DNA of 64,000 nt from Flavobacterium sp. N3904. Lineage in GTDB: Bacteria > Bacteroidota > Bacteroidia > Flavobacteriales > Flavobacteriaceae. Both the position numbers and the translations under genes were made by a program. Under the pieces are notes generated by a model, which was given only the letters and a program-made list of their open reading frames with translations, searched no databases and had not been told where the DNA came from. This document shows positions 19,849 to 55,652 of this stretch, piece after piece (position 1 is the first letter of the stretch; each line of letters opens with the position of its first letter). The stretch spans positions 1,674,001-1,738,000 of the forward strand of contig NZ_CP110009.1 in assembly GCF_025947305.1 (NCBI RefSeq). Reading direction: 5' to 3'.

Positions 19849-20294
19849 AATTATATATTTAAATTCTTTTTTTCTTGGACAAATTTAAAATAATAAATTG
19901 AATAATATACTATGCATGCATAACATTTTTGACAACTATTACGATTTCGTCAGTTATGATCGATTATGATAGGTTTTAATCAGAATTATTATAAATAATC
20001 GGGATGATTTTGTGAATTAGTTCCTGTTTTTTGATTTTGCCTTTGATTTGCAAGTAGTTTCAATTTCGAAAATTTCCTTTTTTGCACTGATATTTTAGCC
20101 CGGATAGTAGCGGCATCCTTCTTGTGGTCCCGTTTTTTCTAACGGGATTACAAGAAGATATAGCGAATAGCCGGAAACAGCTCCTAAAAAAAAACAATAG
20201 CATAAATCGGTGTTATTTTAAAGTATTTTATGCTTTTAAGTAATTTAAAATAATTATTTTTGCGGTTCTAAAAATTACACACAGACAATATAAT
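19849..20294. other. Divergent intergenic region etfB / pdhB
   Basis: Contains the etfB -7 element (19887-19880), a palindromic TATGCATGCATA (19912-19923), one copy of the dispersed hairpin repeat (20094-20185), and TATTTTTGC (20255-20263), a perfect -7 for pdhB. No open frame of note. Confidence 0.6.
20094..20185 (+). repeat. Dispersed hairpin repeat, copy A
   Basis: Outer segments TTTAGCCCGGATAGTAGCGG and GATATAGCGAATAGCCGG flank an inner hairpin whose outer arms are TTCTTGT and ACAAGAA and whose tip is CCCGTT/AACGGG. The 3' border is AGCTCCT. The same borders reappear inverted at 23837-23906, and in more diverged form at 53731-53808 and 55440-55530. Confidence 0.75.
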
Positions 20295-23838: not shown

Positions 23839-23906
23839 GAGCTATTCCAGCTGTACACTATATCCACGCCCAAAAGCGTGGGATGCCGTTTTCATCTGTG
23901 CTAAAA
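23837..23906 (-). repeat. Dispersed hairpin repeat, copy C (inverted relative to copy A)
   Basis: Read on the plus strand it begins AGGAGCTATTCC, has CACTATATC, an inner hairpin CACGCCCAAAAGCGTG, then GGATGCCG and ends GTGCTAAAA. The borders match the reverse complement of copy A (AGGAGCTGTTTCC, CGCTATATC, GGATGCCGC, GGGCTAAAA) while the inner hairpin is different. It starts at the second base of the DUF5686 stop codon and ends 9 nt before the next ATG. Confidence 0.8.
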
Positions 23907-33973: not shown

Positions 33974-34140
33974 AATAATTATAAATTTTAAAAATTAATC
34001 GAGAAAAAAATAATTGCTGGAAAGGCTAAAGGAGAGTTTCTGCTTTAGCATTTTTTCTACTGAAAATTTTTCAGCATCCATAATGAATCCGGTTCATTAT
34101 GAAGAGGTTGCAATCAGTTCAAATTTTTCCTCTTGTATTC
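33974..34140 (-). other. Structured metK 5' leader with a 30-codon open frame
   Basis: On the minus strand the leader holds CATAATGA/TTCATTATG, CTGAAAAATTTTCAG and GCTAAAG/CTTTAGC hairpins in series. An open frame of 30 codons runs from ATG 34080 to the stop at 33990-33988, 14 nt before metK; it encodes MDAEKFSVEKMLKQKL and a hydrophobic end. It does not match the SAM-I pattern found twice elsewhere in the window, and I cannot assign it to a known SAM-sensing class. It may be chance. Confidence 0.35.
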
Positions 34141-34174: not shown

Positions 34175-34727
34175 ATTATTCTTTTGTTTTTTTTAATTAA
34201 TTAAGAGGAATTTAACAAGTTCTATTAATTCTATAGAATTTATAAAAATAAATTGATTTTTGCTTGGTGGTTTAAAAAATAGTTTGCAATTTTGTCCCGC
34301 CGAAATAGGATTAATTAGAAATAAAATTAATGATTTCAATATTTGTTGTATGATATGTGTTGTGGAAAGCTTCCTGAGAGCATAGTATGTTATGTTGTTC
34401 TTTTTGTTTTTAAAAATCCATTACTCACCATTGCTATTGTATTATTAGGTTTGGTCGCCAAATTATTTTGAAAGTCAATTCATTCAAATTGGTAAGAGTT
34501 CTTGTTTTTGACCTAATTTTTAGTTTTAAATCTATTTATATGAGAAATTTTTGTTAAATAAAAGACAGTAAAATTTAGAATTAAGAGCTTTTGTTTTTAT
34601 AATAATCTCATTTTTAATATGTTCTAATTTTAATTATTTGTTTTGTAAGTGTTAAATTTTGTGTTTAGTATTAGGATTATTAAAAAAAAGTTTGGATATT
34701 TGTAAAACAGAAATAAAAAAGTAAGAA
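34175..34727. other. Long AT-rich divergent spacer between metK and the metY leader region
   Basis: About 550 nt with no supported gene. Mostly T-rich stretches. A weak -7-like GATATTTG lies at 34695-34702, about 26 nt before the small open frame at 34728. Confidence 0.4.
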
Positions 34728-34796
34728 ATGAAGTTTAATGTATGCAATATGTCAAAAAAAGCCATTCAGGATGAATCCTGTGGGGAGTGTGTATAG
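34728..34796 (+). CDS. Candidate 22-codon leader or small peptide with three Cys codons
   Basis: ATG 34728 to TAG 34796 encodes a 22-residue peptide beginning MKFNVCNMSKK and ending SCGECV, with Cys at 6, 18 and 21 and Met at 1 and 8. It is followed 29 nt later by a strong terminator. The GGGAG at 34783-34787, within its last codons, can pair with CTCCC (34831-34835) in the terminator arm, so translation could influence termination. It could be a first leader in series with the one at 34962, or an independent short RNA. No family is recognised. Confidence 0.45.
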   Translation: MKFNVCNMSKKAIQDESCGECV

Positions 34797-34825
34797 CTTA
34801 ATTTTAAATTCAAAAATATATAGCA

Positions 34826-34858
34826 AAAACCTCCCAAAAATACGGGAGGTTTTTTTTT
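34826..34858 (+). terminator. Terminator 1 in the metY upstream region
   Basis: AAAACCTCCC (34826-34835) pairs with GGGAGGTTTT (34844-34853), loop AAAAATAC, nine T. It is GC-rich for this genome and very likely a real intrinsic terminator, placed well upstream of metY. Confidence 0.88.
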
Positions 34859-34961
34859 GTCATTTTCAAGGTTAAAAAAACGATAACAATAAGTAAAAAA
34901 ATAATAAAGCATGCCCCAACTCTACACGTTTAAAACTACCATTTGCAAGGCAAATAAGATT

Positions 34962-35003
34962 ATGATGTGCATATGCGCCATGGTGTGTGTTTGTGTCTGT
35001 TGA
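34962..35003 (+). CDS. Cys/Met-rich leader peptide of metY
   Basis: ATG 34962 to TGA 35003 encodes MMCICAMVCVCVC: five Cys and three Met codons out of thirteen, an extreme composition for chance. Cys or Met starvation would stall ribosomes along the whole frame. The antiterminator strand begins two bases after the stop codon and a strong terminator follows, so the arrangement is that of a classical amino acid attenuator. The downstream gene is O-acetylhomoserine sulfhydrylase, which uses sulfide to make homocysteine. A hairpin ATTTGC-AAG-GCAAAT (34941-34955) precedes the start. No Shine-Dalgarno is visible, as is normal here. Confidence 0.8.
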   Translation: MMCICAMVCVCVC

Positions 35004-35004
35004 T

Positions 35005-35070
35005 TCCAAAAGTATAAGTTTATCATACAACTTAAAACCCTTTTGGATACGTATCTAAAAGGGTTTTTTG
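35005..35070 (+). promoter_or_regulatory. metY attenuator: alternative antiterminator and terminator hairpins
   Basis: Terminator: AAAACCCTTTT (35034-35044) pairs with AAAAGGGTTTT (35057-35067), with GGAT/TCT extension and a T run. Antiterminator: TCCAAAAG (35005-35012) pairs with all eight bases of CTTTTGGA (35040-35047), which belong to the terminator 5' arm, so the two folds exclude each other. A small AAGTT/AACTT stem (35016-35020 and 35029-35033) would sit inside the antiterminator. A ribosome at the leader stop codon would cover TCCAAAAG and favour termination; a ribosome stalled earlier on Cys codons would leave it free. Confidence 0.78.
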
Positions 35071-35161
35071 TTTTTCTGTCCTCAAAGGATAAGAAAATCA
35101 GAATTAAAAAATAAATAGTAAAGCCAAATAAGCTTAAAATAAAAATTAAAAAAAAGAAATT

Positions 35162-36448
35162 ATGAGTTCAAATAAATTTGCAACGAATGCATTGCACGCA
35201 GGACATGATGTAACAAAACACGGTGGTACACGAGCAGTGCCTATTTATCAAACGACTTCTTATGTATTTAATAATTCAGAACATGCTGCCAATTTATTTG
35301 GTCTTGCCGAAGCTGGATTTATATATACCCGATTGAATAACCCAACCAATGATATTTTAGAGCAACGTTTGGCGGCTTTGGAAGGCGGTATTGGAGCAGT
35401 GGTAACGGCATCTGGAACAGCGGCTATTGCAACTACATTATTGGTTTTGTTAAAAACTGGAGACCATATAGTAGCTTCCAACAGTTTGTATGGAGGAACC
35501 TATAATTTATTGAGTGCTACTTTACCGAGATTGGGAATCACAACCACATTTGTGGATCCGTCAGATTCGGCAAATTTTACCAAAGCTGCCAAAGAAAATA
35601 CAAGAGTATTTTTTGCAGAAAGTTTGGGAAATCCAAAATTAGACGTTCTTGATCTTAAAGCCATTTCGGAAGAAGCCAAAGAGTATAATGTTCCTTTCAT
35701 TGTAGATAATACGGTTCCGTCACCTTATTTATTGAATCCAATTGAGTATGGAGCCAACATAGTGATACACTCCCTTACCAAATATATTTCTGGAAACGGG
35801 ACTTCACTGGGAGGAGTTGTTATTGATGCAGGAACATTTGACTGGAGCAGTGGTAAGTTTCCTGAGTTTACAGAACCGTCACCGGGATATCACGGATTAG
35901 TGTATCACGAAGCACTCGGAAATGCCGCTTTTATTGCCAAAGTAAGAATCGAAGGATTGCGAGATTATGGTGCGGCACTTAGTCCATTTAATGCTTTTCA
36001 GATTATACAGGGATTGGAAACCCTGCCTGTTCGAGTCCAGAAGCACAGCGAAAACGGATTGGCATTGGCTCAGTGGTTGGAAAAACAGGAAGCCGTAGCT
36101 TGGGTCAATTATCCCGGTTTGAAGTCGAGTAAATATTATGATTTGGCTCAGAAATATTTGCCAAAAGGACAAAACGGATTGCTGACATTTGGTTTAAAAG
36201 GCGGATTTGAAGCAGCTAAGAAAGTAGCTGATGAAACAAAGCTGTTTTCACTTTTAGCCAATATTGGAGACACCAAATCCTTGATTATCCATCCGGCCAG
36301 TACAACGCATCAGCAGTTGTCCGATGCAGAGCAGGTCGCCACGGGAGTAACCAAAGATTTGATTCGACTCTCAGTAGGATTGGAAGATATTGAAGATTTA
36401 AAAGCCGATTTAGCAGCCGTTTTTGCAGAATTAACAGTAAAAGTATAA
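35162..36448 (+). CDS. metY: O-acetylhomoserine sulfhydrylase
   Basis: A 428-residue PLP enzyme that joins O-acetylhomoserine with sulfide to make homocysteine. It has the long MetY form: ATNALHAGHDVTKHGGTRAVPIYQTTSYVF (about 7-36), YTRLNNPTNDILEQRLAALEGG (about 55-76), the PLP lysine in VIHSLTKYISGNGTSLGG (about 200-217) and IHPASTTHQQLSD (about 374-386). Its substrate is made by metX, 740 nt downstream of its end. Expression appears to be set by the Cys/Met-rich leader, not by a SAM riboswitch as for metX and metH. Confidence 0.95.
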   Translation: MSSNKFATNALHAGHDVTKHGGTRAVPIYQTTSYVFNNSEHAANLFGLAEAGFIYTRLNNPTNDILEQRLAALEGGIGAVVTASGTAAIATTLLVLLKTGDHIVASNSLYGGTYNLLSATLPRLGITTTFVDPSDSANFTKAAKENTRVFFAESLGNPKLDVLDLKAISEEAKEYNVPFIVDNTVPSPYLLNPIEYGANIVIHSLTKYISGNGTSLGGVVIDAGTFDWSSGKFPEFTEPSPGYHGLVYHEALGNAAFIAKVRIEGLRDYGAALSPFNAFQIIQGLETLPVRVQKHSENGLALAQWLEKQEAVAWVNYPGLKSSKYYDLAQKYLPKGQNGLLTFGLKGGFEAAKKVADETKLFSLLANIGDTKSLIIHPASTTHQQLSDAEQVATGVTKDLIRLSVGLEDIEDLKADLAAVFAELTVKV

Positions 36449-36565: not shown

Positions 36566-36775
36566 ATGAAAACTATAACATATATCACAAGCAAAGTAGA
36601 GTTACTAAAAAATATAATTTTGAAATCAATAAAAGTAGAACCTTTTAATCTTATGAAAGAGTTGGATCACACCAGGTTTCATGTAGACGAGAACTTCGAT
36701 TTGAAAGCAAAAAAAGGCAACACCTCTTTATTGTTTCATATGTACTCTAAAGAAAATGAAACTCTTTTTATATAA
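36566..36775 (+). CDS. Small hypothetical protein
   Basis: A 69-residue protein that I do not recognise: a basic N-terminus (MKTITYITSKVELLKNIILKSIKV) and a charged C-terminus ending in Leu-Phe-Ile. No signal peptide or membrane helix. It lies 117 nt downstream of metY on the same strand and is followed by a long hairpin with a T run, so it may be the last gene of the metY transcript. A sulfur role is a guess from position only. Confidence 0.5.
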   Translation: MKTITYITSKVELLKNIILKSIKVEPFNLMKELDHTRFHVDENFDLKAKKGNTSLLFHMYSKENETLFI

Positions 36776-36983: not shown

Positions 36984-37011
36984 CACCTTTAAGTTCAGAA
37001 ACGTATTGAAA

Positions 37012-37117
37012 TGTTATAAAGAAAGGCAGAGGGATTAGACCCGATGAAGCCTTAGCAACCCTTCGATTTATCGAAGAAGGTGCTGCATTCTACCACGCCA
37101 AACGTGGAAAGATAACA
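37012..37117 (+). ncRNA. SAM-I (S-box) riboswitch upstream of metX-thrA
   Basis: The conserved SAM-I core is present: AGGCAGAGGGATTAGACCCG followed by ATGAAGCC, TTAGCAACC, GAAGGTGCTGCATTC and GGAAAGATAACA. P1 is closed by TGTTAT (37012-37017) with ATAACA (37112-37117), and CTTCGATTTATCGAAG forms the P3-type hairpin. High SAM should repress the metX transcript. No clear U-tract terminator follows, so control of translation or a noncanonical expression platform is possible. Confidence 0.95.
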
Positions 37118-37190
37118 CAAAGAATTCAACTAGTTTTTTCTAGCTTTCTTCATAATATTTCCAGGTACAAATCAAAAAATCAAAATAGAT

Positions 37191-53510: not shown

Positions 53511-53533
53511 CACTGTTCCTATTTTTATTGAAA

Positions 53534-53637
53534 GTTATCACGAAAGGCGGAGGGAAAAGACCCGATGAAACCTTAGCAACCCTTTACTTTTTTAAAGAAG
53601 GTGCTACATTCTACCACGCATTGCGCGGATAGATAAC
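53534..53637 (+). ncRNA. SAM-I (S-box) riboswitch upstream of metH
   Basis: Core AAGGCGGAGGGAAAAGACCC, then GATGAAACC, TTAGCAACCC, GAAGGTGCTACATTC, CCACGCATTGCGCGG and GATAAC. P1 is GTTATC (53534-53539) with GATAAC (53632-53637). It is a close relative of the one at 37012. A GAATAC/GTATTC hairpin follows (53642-53659), but no strong U-tract is visible. Confidence 0.94.
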
Positions 53638-53730
53638 ACAAGAATACATCCCCGTATTCCTCAAACCTTTTCCTGACAACATATCGATATTTTTTTTAGA
53701 GCGAATTATTGGCGCATTTTTTGCAGTCAA

Positions 53731-53808
53731 CGTTCCCGCTTTCCGTTGCAATCTTTTTTGTTTTTAAAGAAAAAACAAAAAAGGATTTTCATTGCAATCG
53801 GGGCTAAA
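53731..53808 (-). repeat. Dispersed hairpin repeat, copy D (diverged)
   Basis: Reads CGTTCCCGCTTTCCGTTGC, then AATC, an inner stem TTTTTTG/CAAAAAA, then GGATTTTCATTGCAATCGG and GGGCTAAA. The TTCCCGC, ATC, GGAT and GGGCTAAA landmarks match the reverse complement of copy A in the same order. Confidence 0.6.
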
Positions 53809-53882
53809 GAGCCGAAAATAGTGATTTTTTGGAAATAATAATCAGCTTAGCGCCTTTGTGCCTTTGCGAGAAATAAAAAAAT

Positions 53883-54884
53883 ATGTCAACAATTCAAGAA
53901 GAAATAAAAAAGAGAATACTCGTGCTCGATGGAGCAATGGGGACAATGCTGCAACGTTATAATTTCTCCGAAGAAGATTTTCGTGGCGAACGATTCAAAG
54001 ATTTCCCGCATCCGCTAAAGGGGAACAATGATTTATTGTCTCTCACGCAACCACAGGCCATAAAAGCCGTGCACGCCGCCTATTTTGAGGCAGGAGCTGA
54101 TATTGTGGAAACCAATACTTTCTCAGGAACCACTATAGGAATGGCGGATTATCACTTGGAGGATTTAGTTTATGAATTGAATTACGAATCGGCCAAACTA
54201 GCCCGTGAAGTAGCCGATGAATTCACAGCCAAAAATCCAAACCAGCCTCGCTTTGTTGCCGGTTCAATTGGACCGACAAACCGTACGGCAAGTATGTCAC
54301 CGGACGTAAACGACCCGGGATACAGAGCCGTAACTTTTGATGATTTACGTACCGCCTACAAACAACAAGTCGAAGCCTTAATGGACGGCGGGTGCGACTT
54401 GCTTTTGGTAGAAACAATTTTTGATACGCTAAATGCCAAAGCGGCACTTTTCGCCATCGAACAAGTAAAAGAAGAACGCAATATTGATATTCCAATTATG
54501 GTTTCGGGAACTATTACCGATGCTTCGGGAAGAACACTTTCTGGGCAAACGGTTGAAGCCTTTTTGGTTTCAGTATCGCATATTCCGTTGTTGAGCGTAG
54601 GATTCAATTGTGCCCTTGGTGCCGATTTATTGAAACCGTATTTGCAAACTTTGTCGCATAACACTTCTTTCAACGTGTCGGCGCATCCAAATGCTGGATT
54701 GCCAAACGCTTTTGGGGAATACGATGAAACACCGGAAGAAATGCAAGCCCAAATTAAAAGTTATTTAGACGATAATTTAATAAACATAATAGGCGGTTGT
54801 TGCGGAACAACTCCAAACCATATTAAATTGATTGCTGATATTGCCAAGGATTACAAGCCTAGAGTTTCGACTGCGGTGATGTAA
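53883..54884 (+). CDS. metH: Methionine synthase, homocysteine-binding part (split MetH, N-terminal module)
   Basis: A 333-residue zinc methyltransferase module that binds homocysteine. It contains [16 protein letters not shown] (about 13-28), [16 protein letters not shown] (about 69-84), the first zinc cysteine in GFNCALG (about 240-246) and the pair in GGCCGTT (about 306-312). It corresponds to the first third of E. coli MetH; the rest is encoded at 55653-58334. The first module is under the SAM riboswitch. Confidence 0.94.
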
Positions 54885-55342: not shown

Positions 55343-55652
55343 TAATGAAACAGATATGACGGATTTGCAATCCGTGCCCGCAAAGAGAGTCAAATAAAAG
55401 GTTTTGGAAAAAACTAAAAGTTGATTTATAGCACAATGCCCGCGTGAGGGATAGAAGTGGAGCTTTTTTATTGATTTTTTCATCAAGAAAAAAAGCGGGA
55501 ACGTATAGCCCGACCCGACCTTTTTTGGAGGGTCACGCCCAAATAAAGTTGAAATTAAAATAAAATATAGCTGCAGTTTTTTGGACCGTAGACAAAATAA
55601 TAAAAACTTAGAACCTAATTCACATAGGAACTTAGTAACTCAAAATAAAAAA
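55343..55652. other. Spacer before the second metH module
   Basis: Contains the putative repeat copy B (55430-55530), then GAGGGTCACGCCC and an AT-rich lead into metH. No convincing promoter. The frame of the next gene is open from a TTG at 55581, but the family start lies at 55653. Confidence 0.5.
55430..55530 (+). repeat. Dispersed hairpin repeat, copy B (most diverged)
   Basis: GCCCGCGTGAGGGATAGAAG, TGGAGC, an inner TTTTTT...AAAAAA fold, then GCGGGAACGTATAGCCCG and a GACCTTTTTTGGAGGGTC hairpin. It shares GGATAGnAG, the TATAGCC segment and the overall plan with copy A, but is less similar than C or D. Confidence 0.45.

Follow-up and report, generated by a model that had tools for sequence, protein, structure and literature searches.

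The locus studied here is the upstream region of metY in Flavobacterium sp. N3904. It lies in a window of 64,000 nt, the whole stretch of DNA which was analysed, and all positions are counted from its first base. The gene codes for a protein which matches PF01053 and passes the cut-off of TIGR01326. In front of it we find two complete leader units in tandem on the plus strand, unit 1 (34728-34854) and unit 2 (34911-35067); unit 1 is placed between the divergent metK and unit 2. The features of the locus and its surroundings are the following:

34035-34138, minus strand: SAM-II riboswitch at metK, found by Rfam search
34728-34796, plus strand: leader ORF 1, MKFNVCNMSKKAIQDESCGECV*, 22 codons and stop
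34767-34780, plus strand: small inverted repeat CAGGATGAATCCTG, adjoining the 5' side of the unit 1 antiterminator arm
34783-34787, plus strand: unit 1 antiterminator arm GGGAG, with its partner CTCCC at 34831-34835
34825-34854, plus strand: unit 1 intrinsic terminator, with a T run directly after it
34911-35003, plus strand: leader ORF 2, MPQLYTFKTTICKANKIMMCICAMVCVCVC, likely 30 codons and stop, with its ATG at 34911
35005-35012, plus strand: unit 2 antiterminator arm TCCAAAAG, with its partner at 35040-35047
35015-35034, plus strand: inner stem of the unit 2 antiterminator, 35015-35020 with 35029-35034, from the fold of 35003-35049
35034-35067, plus strand: unit 2 intrinsic terminator, whose 5' arm includes CTTTTGGA at 35040-35047
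35162-36448, plus strand: metY, O-acetylhomoserine/O-acetylserine sulfhydrylase family, the predicted regulated gene
36566-36775, plus strand: conserved small ORF of 69 aa, ending in SLLFHMYSKENETLFI
37011-37118, plus strand: SAM-I riboswitch ahead of metX (78.5 bits), a second control layer downstream
53532-53639, plus strand: SAM-I riboswitch upstream of a homocysteine methyltransferase gene at 53883

Around a single leader, predicted to be of the charged-tRNA type, this window has three SAM sensors. There are also four matches to Flavo-1 RNA, a family with no function attached to it (20093-20181, 23840-23906, 53728-53809 and 55426-55519). The small ORF of 69 aa matches no Pfam or NCBIfam family; possibly it belongs to the same operon as metY. 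In relatives a similar small ORF is found either in the interval between leader and metY (L006 and L008-L010) or ahead of metX (L038 and L040).

Unit 2 had already been described in a first-pass annotation as a 13-codon leader rich in Cys and Met, followed by two structures which exclude each other. Direct reading confirms the exact placement of the frame at 34962-35003, of the arm at 35005-35012 with its complement at 35040-35047, and of the terminator at 35034-35067. The frame MMCICAMVCVCVC* does exist, but its length has to be revised: it is probably the 3' end of a leader of 30 codons, because the same frame is open from 34911 and eight relatives with a similar leader 2 have 29-33 codons, for example MNNLKQKQMNTCNVKSMICAKAMMCICVC (L002) and MINLNFKQINPSIVKSLICTKSLMCVCFR (L043). 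The arm TCCAAAAG begins at the second base past the stop codon. The terminator folds with -17.1 kcal/mol (z -5.7, equalled by 0 of 200 shuffles); among the 12 consensus pairs of its helix, 5 have two-sided changes. The alternative fold, TCCAAAAG:CTTTTGGA, has -10.3 kcal/mol (z -3.8, equalled by 1 of 200 shuffles).

Unit 1 is absent from that annotation. It has a Met/Cys leader, an antiterminator arm and an intrinsic terminator, which folds with -15.7 kcal/mol (z -4.8) and has 8 consensus pairs, 5 of them with two-sided changes. The antiterminator fold of the window's own unit 1 is weak (z -1.4, equalled by 20 of 200 shuffles). The repeat CAGGATGAATCCTG is also listed on the minus strand and similar repeats are seen by eye in alignment A1: it might correspond to a 1:2 hairpin of unit 1. 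The window gives 93.8 bits with model R1, whose alignment includes it, and 82.2 bits with model R2; both scores are high by construction. Alignments A1 and A2 contain the window with 41 of 47 and 41 of 56 named loci.

Terminator 1 and leader 2 are separated by a gap of 17-270 nt, which in some loci is as small as 17-30 nt. The promoter motif of Bacteroidetes is TAnnTTTG. It is found in none of 40 such gaps, and 15 of 40 loci have it in the 110-nt stretch which precedes unit 1. The window is not among these: its only TAnnTTTG in 34401-35165 is found at 34446. Given the short gaps and the lack of this motif in all 40 of them, both units are likely to lie on one transcript.

We have compared two sets of metY upstream regions. 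The first one has 91 distinct sequences: 15 from the same genus, including the window, and 76 of 80 named loci. L048, L050, L069 and L086 were removed as duplicates; L003, whose start was not found, and L017-L030, which are distant or paralogous, lie outside it. The wider set has 216 distinct sequences: the 91 near the genus of the window and 125 family-wide. The latter are left from a sample of 128 loci after removal of three further duplicates; the sample takes the best 128 of 270 family genomes with a match. In 18 of these 128 no start was found; they were placed by their last 60 bases and left out of the terminator-site control described below. A unit called in L133 at 645 nt upstream is regarded as spurious and not counted, and L043, L061 and L073 are counted only under a looser threshold.

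A short Met/Cys leader with a predicted terminator precedes metY in many flavobacteria, as one or two units. Among the 91 sequences of the first set unit 1 is present in 57 and unit 2 in 68; 40 have both and 6 have neither. Some of the loci with unit 2 only, such as L005, hold a unit 1 whose frame has no suitable ATG. Leader 1 has exactly 22 codons in 39 of the 57 cases and 16-36 codons in the others, and its arm usually lies about 20 nt before the end of the stop codon. Leader 2 has 19-35 codons and often ends in ..CQK; in most loci its arm is found at most some 23 nt before the stop or just past it. When model R1 was applied to the whole order with stricter filters, it found the element in 27 genomes out of 246; 26 of the 27 belong to the genus of the window, and 15 have it twice. 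The frame-based scan also detects units in further genera.

The terminators might simply stand in series to insulate metY, with the frames in front of them due to chance. Terminator 1 would suit this role, as it is nearly symmetric and is listed on both strands. The distribution of the frames argues strongly against it. For 108 non-SAM metY genes we examined the 520 nt ahead of the gene and found a Met/Cys-rich frame at 123 of 139 terminator-like sites; it accompanies none of 63 such sites upstream of 90 SAM-type metY genes and none of 15 in shuffled sequence. The remaining parts of the named loci have 462 sites, and 32 of these, in 31 loci, do have such a frame; by eye all 32 look like further copies of the type of leader found in the window, on the forward strand and downstream of metY. 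Together with the preference for own arm/terminator pairs described below, these counts make plain insulation highly improbable.

The gene context of these 32 extra sites covers L038 and L040 only. In L038 the extra leader is followed by a small ORF of 66 aa, a SAM-I-like element and metX. In L040 (5600-6650) there is a full tandem of the type of the window, then an ORF of 83 aa which resembles the C-terminus of metY, then a small ORF: the second leader seems to have outlived its copy of metY.

The arm of unit 1 is found in several types (GCAGAG, GTGGG, GCGGG, GCAGCG), and the terminator arm varies in step with it. The arms of unit 2 are mostly alike. Since the register of the antiterminator/terminator pairing differs from clade to clade, covariation was not assessed column by column; a swap test took its place, in which each arm is paired with its own terminator or with those of other loci. 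In unit 1 the duplex energy is -11.77 kcal/mol for matched and -9.23 kcal/mol for swapped pairs (n=55); in unit 2 the values are -11.02 and -9.87 kcal/mol (n=61), a small effect. In each unit 0 of 5000 permutations, which ignore phylogeny, are as low. The own terminator arm is usually not the best partner: a median of 8 others in unit 1 and 12 in unit 2 bind better. With phylogeny ignored, conservation of the shared-arm antiterminator is clear for unit 1 and modest for unit 2. The first-pass annotation had proposed an alignment across relatives, and the pairing is conserved in them rather than absent. Its two mutually exclusive structures behind a leader peptide, which form a predicted attenuator, are kept in relatives, according to the swap test.

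We have also studied how the position of the ribosome influences the nascent RNA. It was folded up to the 5' arm of the terminator, after removal of all the RNA up to 12 nt from the first base of the A-site codon; this reach of the ribosome is an assumption. With a stall at Met/Cys codons the mean sequestration of the 5' arm is 0.66 in unit 1 and 0.64 in unit 2, versus 0.07 and 0.14 with the ribosome at the stop, values whose lowness is partly built in because the footprint removes the arm. The best Met/Cys stall has an advantage of more than 0.2 over the stop in 55 of 55 cases in unit 1 and in 66 of 67 in unit 2. With a fixed upstream stall the real spacers give 0.71 and 0.72 in units 1 and 2, the shuffled spacers 0.36 and 0.35; the real value is reached by 36 of 660 and 64 of 804 shuffled spacers, respectively. 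The switch point lies at codons -10 to -8 from the stop in unit 1 and -7 to -5 in unit 2. In equilibrium folds of the full leader the terminator wins at nearly every ribosome position; the difference exceeds 0.3 in just 8 of 55 cases (unit 1) and 5 of 67 (unit 2). The switch must therefore be kinetic, acting before the 3' arm is made.

The codon content of the leaders indicates which amino acid would be sensed. In 139 distinct leaders internal Met represents 18.6% and Cys 13.3% of the residues, figures which are conditioned on the joint Met/Cys threshold used to pick the units. Met and Cys together make 32.3% in frame, versus 10.8% and 3.8% out of frame. On the antiterminating side of the switch point Met codons are about ten-fold denser in unit 1 (26.7% versus 2.6% on the other side) and about seven-fold in unit 2 (28.0% versus 4.2%). 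Cys codons are also denser there in unit 1 (13.5% versus 4.2%), whereas in unit 2 they are found mostly on the opposite side (15.2% versus 30.8%). In the nascent folds the placement of the control codons fits an attenuator, apart from these Cys codons of unit 2.

In the first-pass annotation Cys-tRNA was the chief signal and Met-tRNA only a perhaps. A cysteine switch, in which the Met codons would be incidental, draws on leader 2 of the window, with six Cys and three internal Met, on the 29 of 139 distinct leaders in which Cys exceeds internal Met, and on the MetY family, which by its name can make cysteine. The whole set of leaders reverses this order: internal Met is present in 139 of 139, Cys is missing from 6, and four loci (L159, L164, L218 and L221) have leaders without any Cys. 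In L017, which belongs to a different family of the order, a leader rich in Met but lacking Cys is followed by a terminator. Furthermore the antiterminating positions of both units are matched by the Met codons and not by the Cys codons, and the alternative device found at the same place in other species senses SAM, a product of methionine. Cysteine as the main signal is thus unlikely, and the best reading of the codons is Met as the first input and Cys as the second. Since the metY product passes TIGR01326, O-acetylhomoserine aminocarboxypropyltransferase/cysteine synthase, and belongs to a family whose name refers to the making of homocysteine (for Met) or cysteine, a leader which reads both amino acids would fit either possible product.

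The leader peptide itself could act as a sensor of copper or another thiophilic metal, of redox state or of a methionine metabolite, through ribosome arrest rather than codon starvation; runs such as MMCCMM do resemble metal-binding peptides. However, the peptide varies widely, as a comparison of MKTIAKRNMMCCEMMQMCIPICCCQK with MTLLTNTMMMVMMMSMMMLPPPRCQKSKS makes clear, and Cys is dispensable. The downstream genes do not favour it either: using seven proteins of the window as queries for the 29 unit 1 loci found with R1, we detect in the 1.5 kb which follow the unit metY, a metY-like gene, metX or the small ORF in 16 cases, a homoserine-dehydrogenase-like match in 2 and none of the seven queries in 11. 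A further leader in the same genome also speaks for codon reading. The search of this genome with R1 gives 62 matches at E <= 5; the best one is unit 1 and the second one (39.8 bits) is a leader which is rich in the amino acids of the pathway of its own gene:

G000:C1:2991888-2992028 (L112): leader of ilvD (dihydroxy-acid dehydratase), with the Val/Ile/Leu-rich MKRITNVLVVLSVIVIITDEKGLV and an intrinsic terminator

A peptide sensor is therefore very unlikely. The next seven R1 matches (L113-L119) are terminators without a convincing leader; model R2 gives two further weak matches in this genome, which were inspected and not counted.

The distribution of the units becomes clear when it is compared with that of the SAM-I riboswitch. 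Among the 216 distinct upstream regions, 101 have units, 104 have the SAM-I sequence pattern and 11 have neither. Near the genus of the window (91 regions) units predominate, 85 versus 6 with SAM-I; family-wide (125 regions) there are 16 with units, 98 with SAM-I and 11 with neither. The SAM-I pattern is thus present in 104 of the 115 loci which have no unit. An Rfam search finds SAM-I directly upstream of metY in all six unit-less loci of the first set, the six that were tested, and in none of 26 tested loci with units. The only nominal overlap among the 216 is L185, where the unit lies 739 nt away. The putative units of L137, L145 and L185 are found 739-986 nt upstream of metY, beyond the riboswitch, and are not counted. 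L231, with the frame MITAISKHNHCMRMSFLLGTI and a terminator, has few Met/Cys codons; it is a weak leader, perhaps a degenerate unit, counted among the 101. In five of the 11 loci with neither device (L176, L194, L234, L235 and L240) metK is found directly upstream of metY. A quick tree was made of 117 metY proteins; on it the three states require 4 changes, compared with a mean of 23.4 when shuffled. The well-supported branches of the tree force only one change, which means at least one exchange between units and SAM-I, in either direction; perhaps it has taken place more than once.

As relatives carry SAM-I at this very place, a riboswitch of a SAM class or a T-box might be hidden in the window, with an aptamer overlapping the leader frame. 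The Rfam search of 34640-35165 gives no support to it: no family reaches its gathering score (the best permissive matches have 25-28 bits, with cut-offs of 47-65), there is no match to the SAM-I aptamer RF00162, and no T-box is found among the 19 matches at E <= 1. What is conserved is a frame with its codons and not an aptamer fold, and RNAalifold only gives the terminator helices. We find this explanation scarcely credible.

All these features lead us to conclude that the leader of metY probably consists of two tandem ribosome-mediated transcription attenuators, which would turn the gene on when Met-tRNA, and secondarily Cys-tRNA, is scarce. From the sequences compared we give this reading a probability of about 0.8. 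When Met and Cys are plentiful, the ribosome would trail the RNA polymerase up to the stop codon of the leader and cover the antiterminator arm, so that the terminator would form. A shortage of elongator Met-tRNA or Cys-tRNA would make the ribosome stall on Met/Cys codons some 7-10 or more codons before the stop, or nearer to it in leader 2 of the window. The arm would then be left free to pair with the 5' arm of the terminator ahead of the synthesis of the 3' arm; with its 5' arm captured, the terminator would not form and the polymerase would read through. As both units would have to be passed, they may be described as a lock with two gates opened by the same key.

Ribosome-mediated attenuation by leader peptides is well known in the trp, his, thr, ilv, leu and phe operons. 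The metY units share with these classical attenuators a leader frame with cognate codons, an antiterminator arm near its stop, an intrinsic terminator which shares this arm and a downstream biosynthetic gene. They differ by the use of Met together with Cys codons, by the presence of two full units in series and by the alternation with SAM-I. No Met leader-peptide attenuator is found among the matches listed in the open-licence PMC literature. The mechanism we predict is a known one; the Met/Cys specificity, the doubled layout and the alternation with a riboswitch would be new.

Several related systems have been described in part. For Flavobacterium psychrophilum, sections of PMC9723704 present clues for leader-peptide attenuation ahead of amino-acid operons and name elements of pheA and hisG. 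This species belongs to the same family as the window, and another strain of it (L032) carries both units, although the call of its leader 1 is doubtful. Neither metY nor methionine is mentioned in the main text of that paper; its Table S7 could list the region. Small ORFs similar to leader peptides are found in 5' UTRs of Bacteroides thetaiotaomicron, according to passages of PMC7366714. The cysteine leaders of mycobacteria and other Actinobacteria, as they appear in parts of PMC1262725, also are short frames with Cys runs ahead of sulfur amino-acid genes, but their Cys run is near the stop and they have no conserved terminator hairpin; for the methionine operons of Actinobacteria the same sections report no conserved RNA structure.

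A leader RNA with two frames in series is also present in mgtCBR of Salmonella, which a passage of PMC3641672 calls a singular example of tandem attenuators. It responds to two signals, ATP and proline, and its stem-loops are unlike intrinsic terminators, as described there; in metY the two units share one codon bias, and each ends in a predicted intrinsic terminator. The SAM-I and SAM-II riboswitches have in common with the metY units the control of met genes by methionine status, and in 104 of 216 cases it is SAM-I which stands at this position before metY. They bind SAM, while the metY units have no Rfam aptamer and would read charged tRNA. A section of PMC2965389 describes the exchange of sensing systems at one and the same gene, and a section of PMC4239095 an unexplained RNA element of metXZ in beta-proteobacteria.

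We are inclined to see in these units a class of Met-specific leader-peptide attenuators with Met and Cys codons and two similar gates, exchanged with SAM-I at metY, so that some flavobacteria would now sense charged Met-tRNA instead of SAM, the end product. A leader which reads Met must tell the use of the elongator tRNA from that of the initiator; the one found here would read two sulfur amino acids, both linked with a single enzyme family. The doubled units allow a direct test of what the doubling of an attenuator brings, a lower leak or a sharper response. Since metY is found either with SAM-I or with Met/Cys leaders, and not with both, these species offer a natural experiment in which the sensing of a metabolite may be compared with the sensing of charged tRNA.
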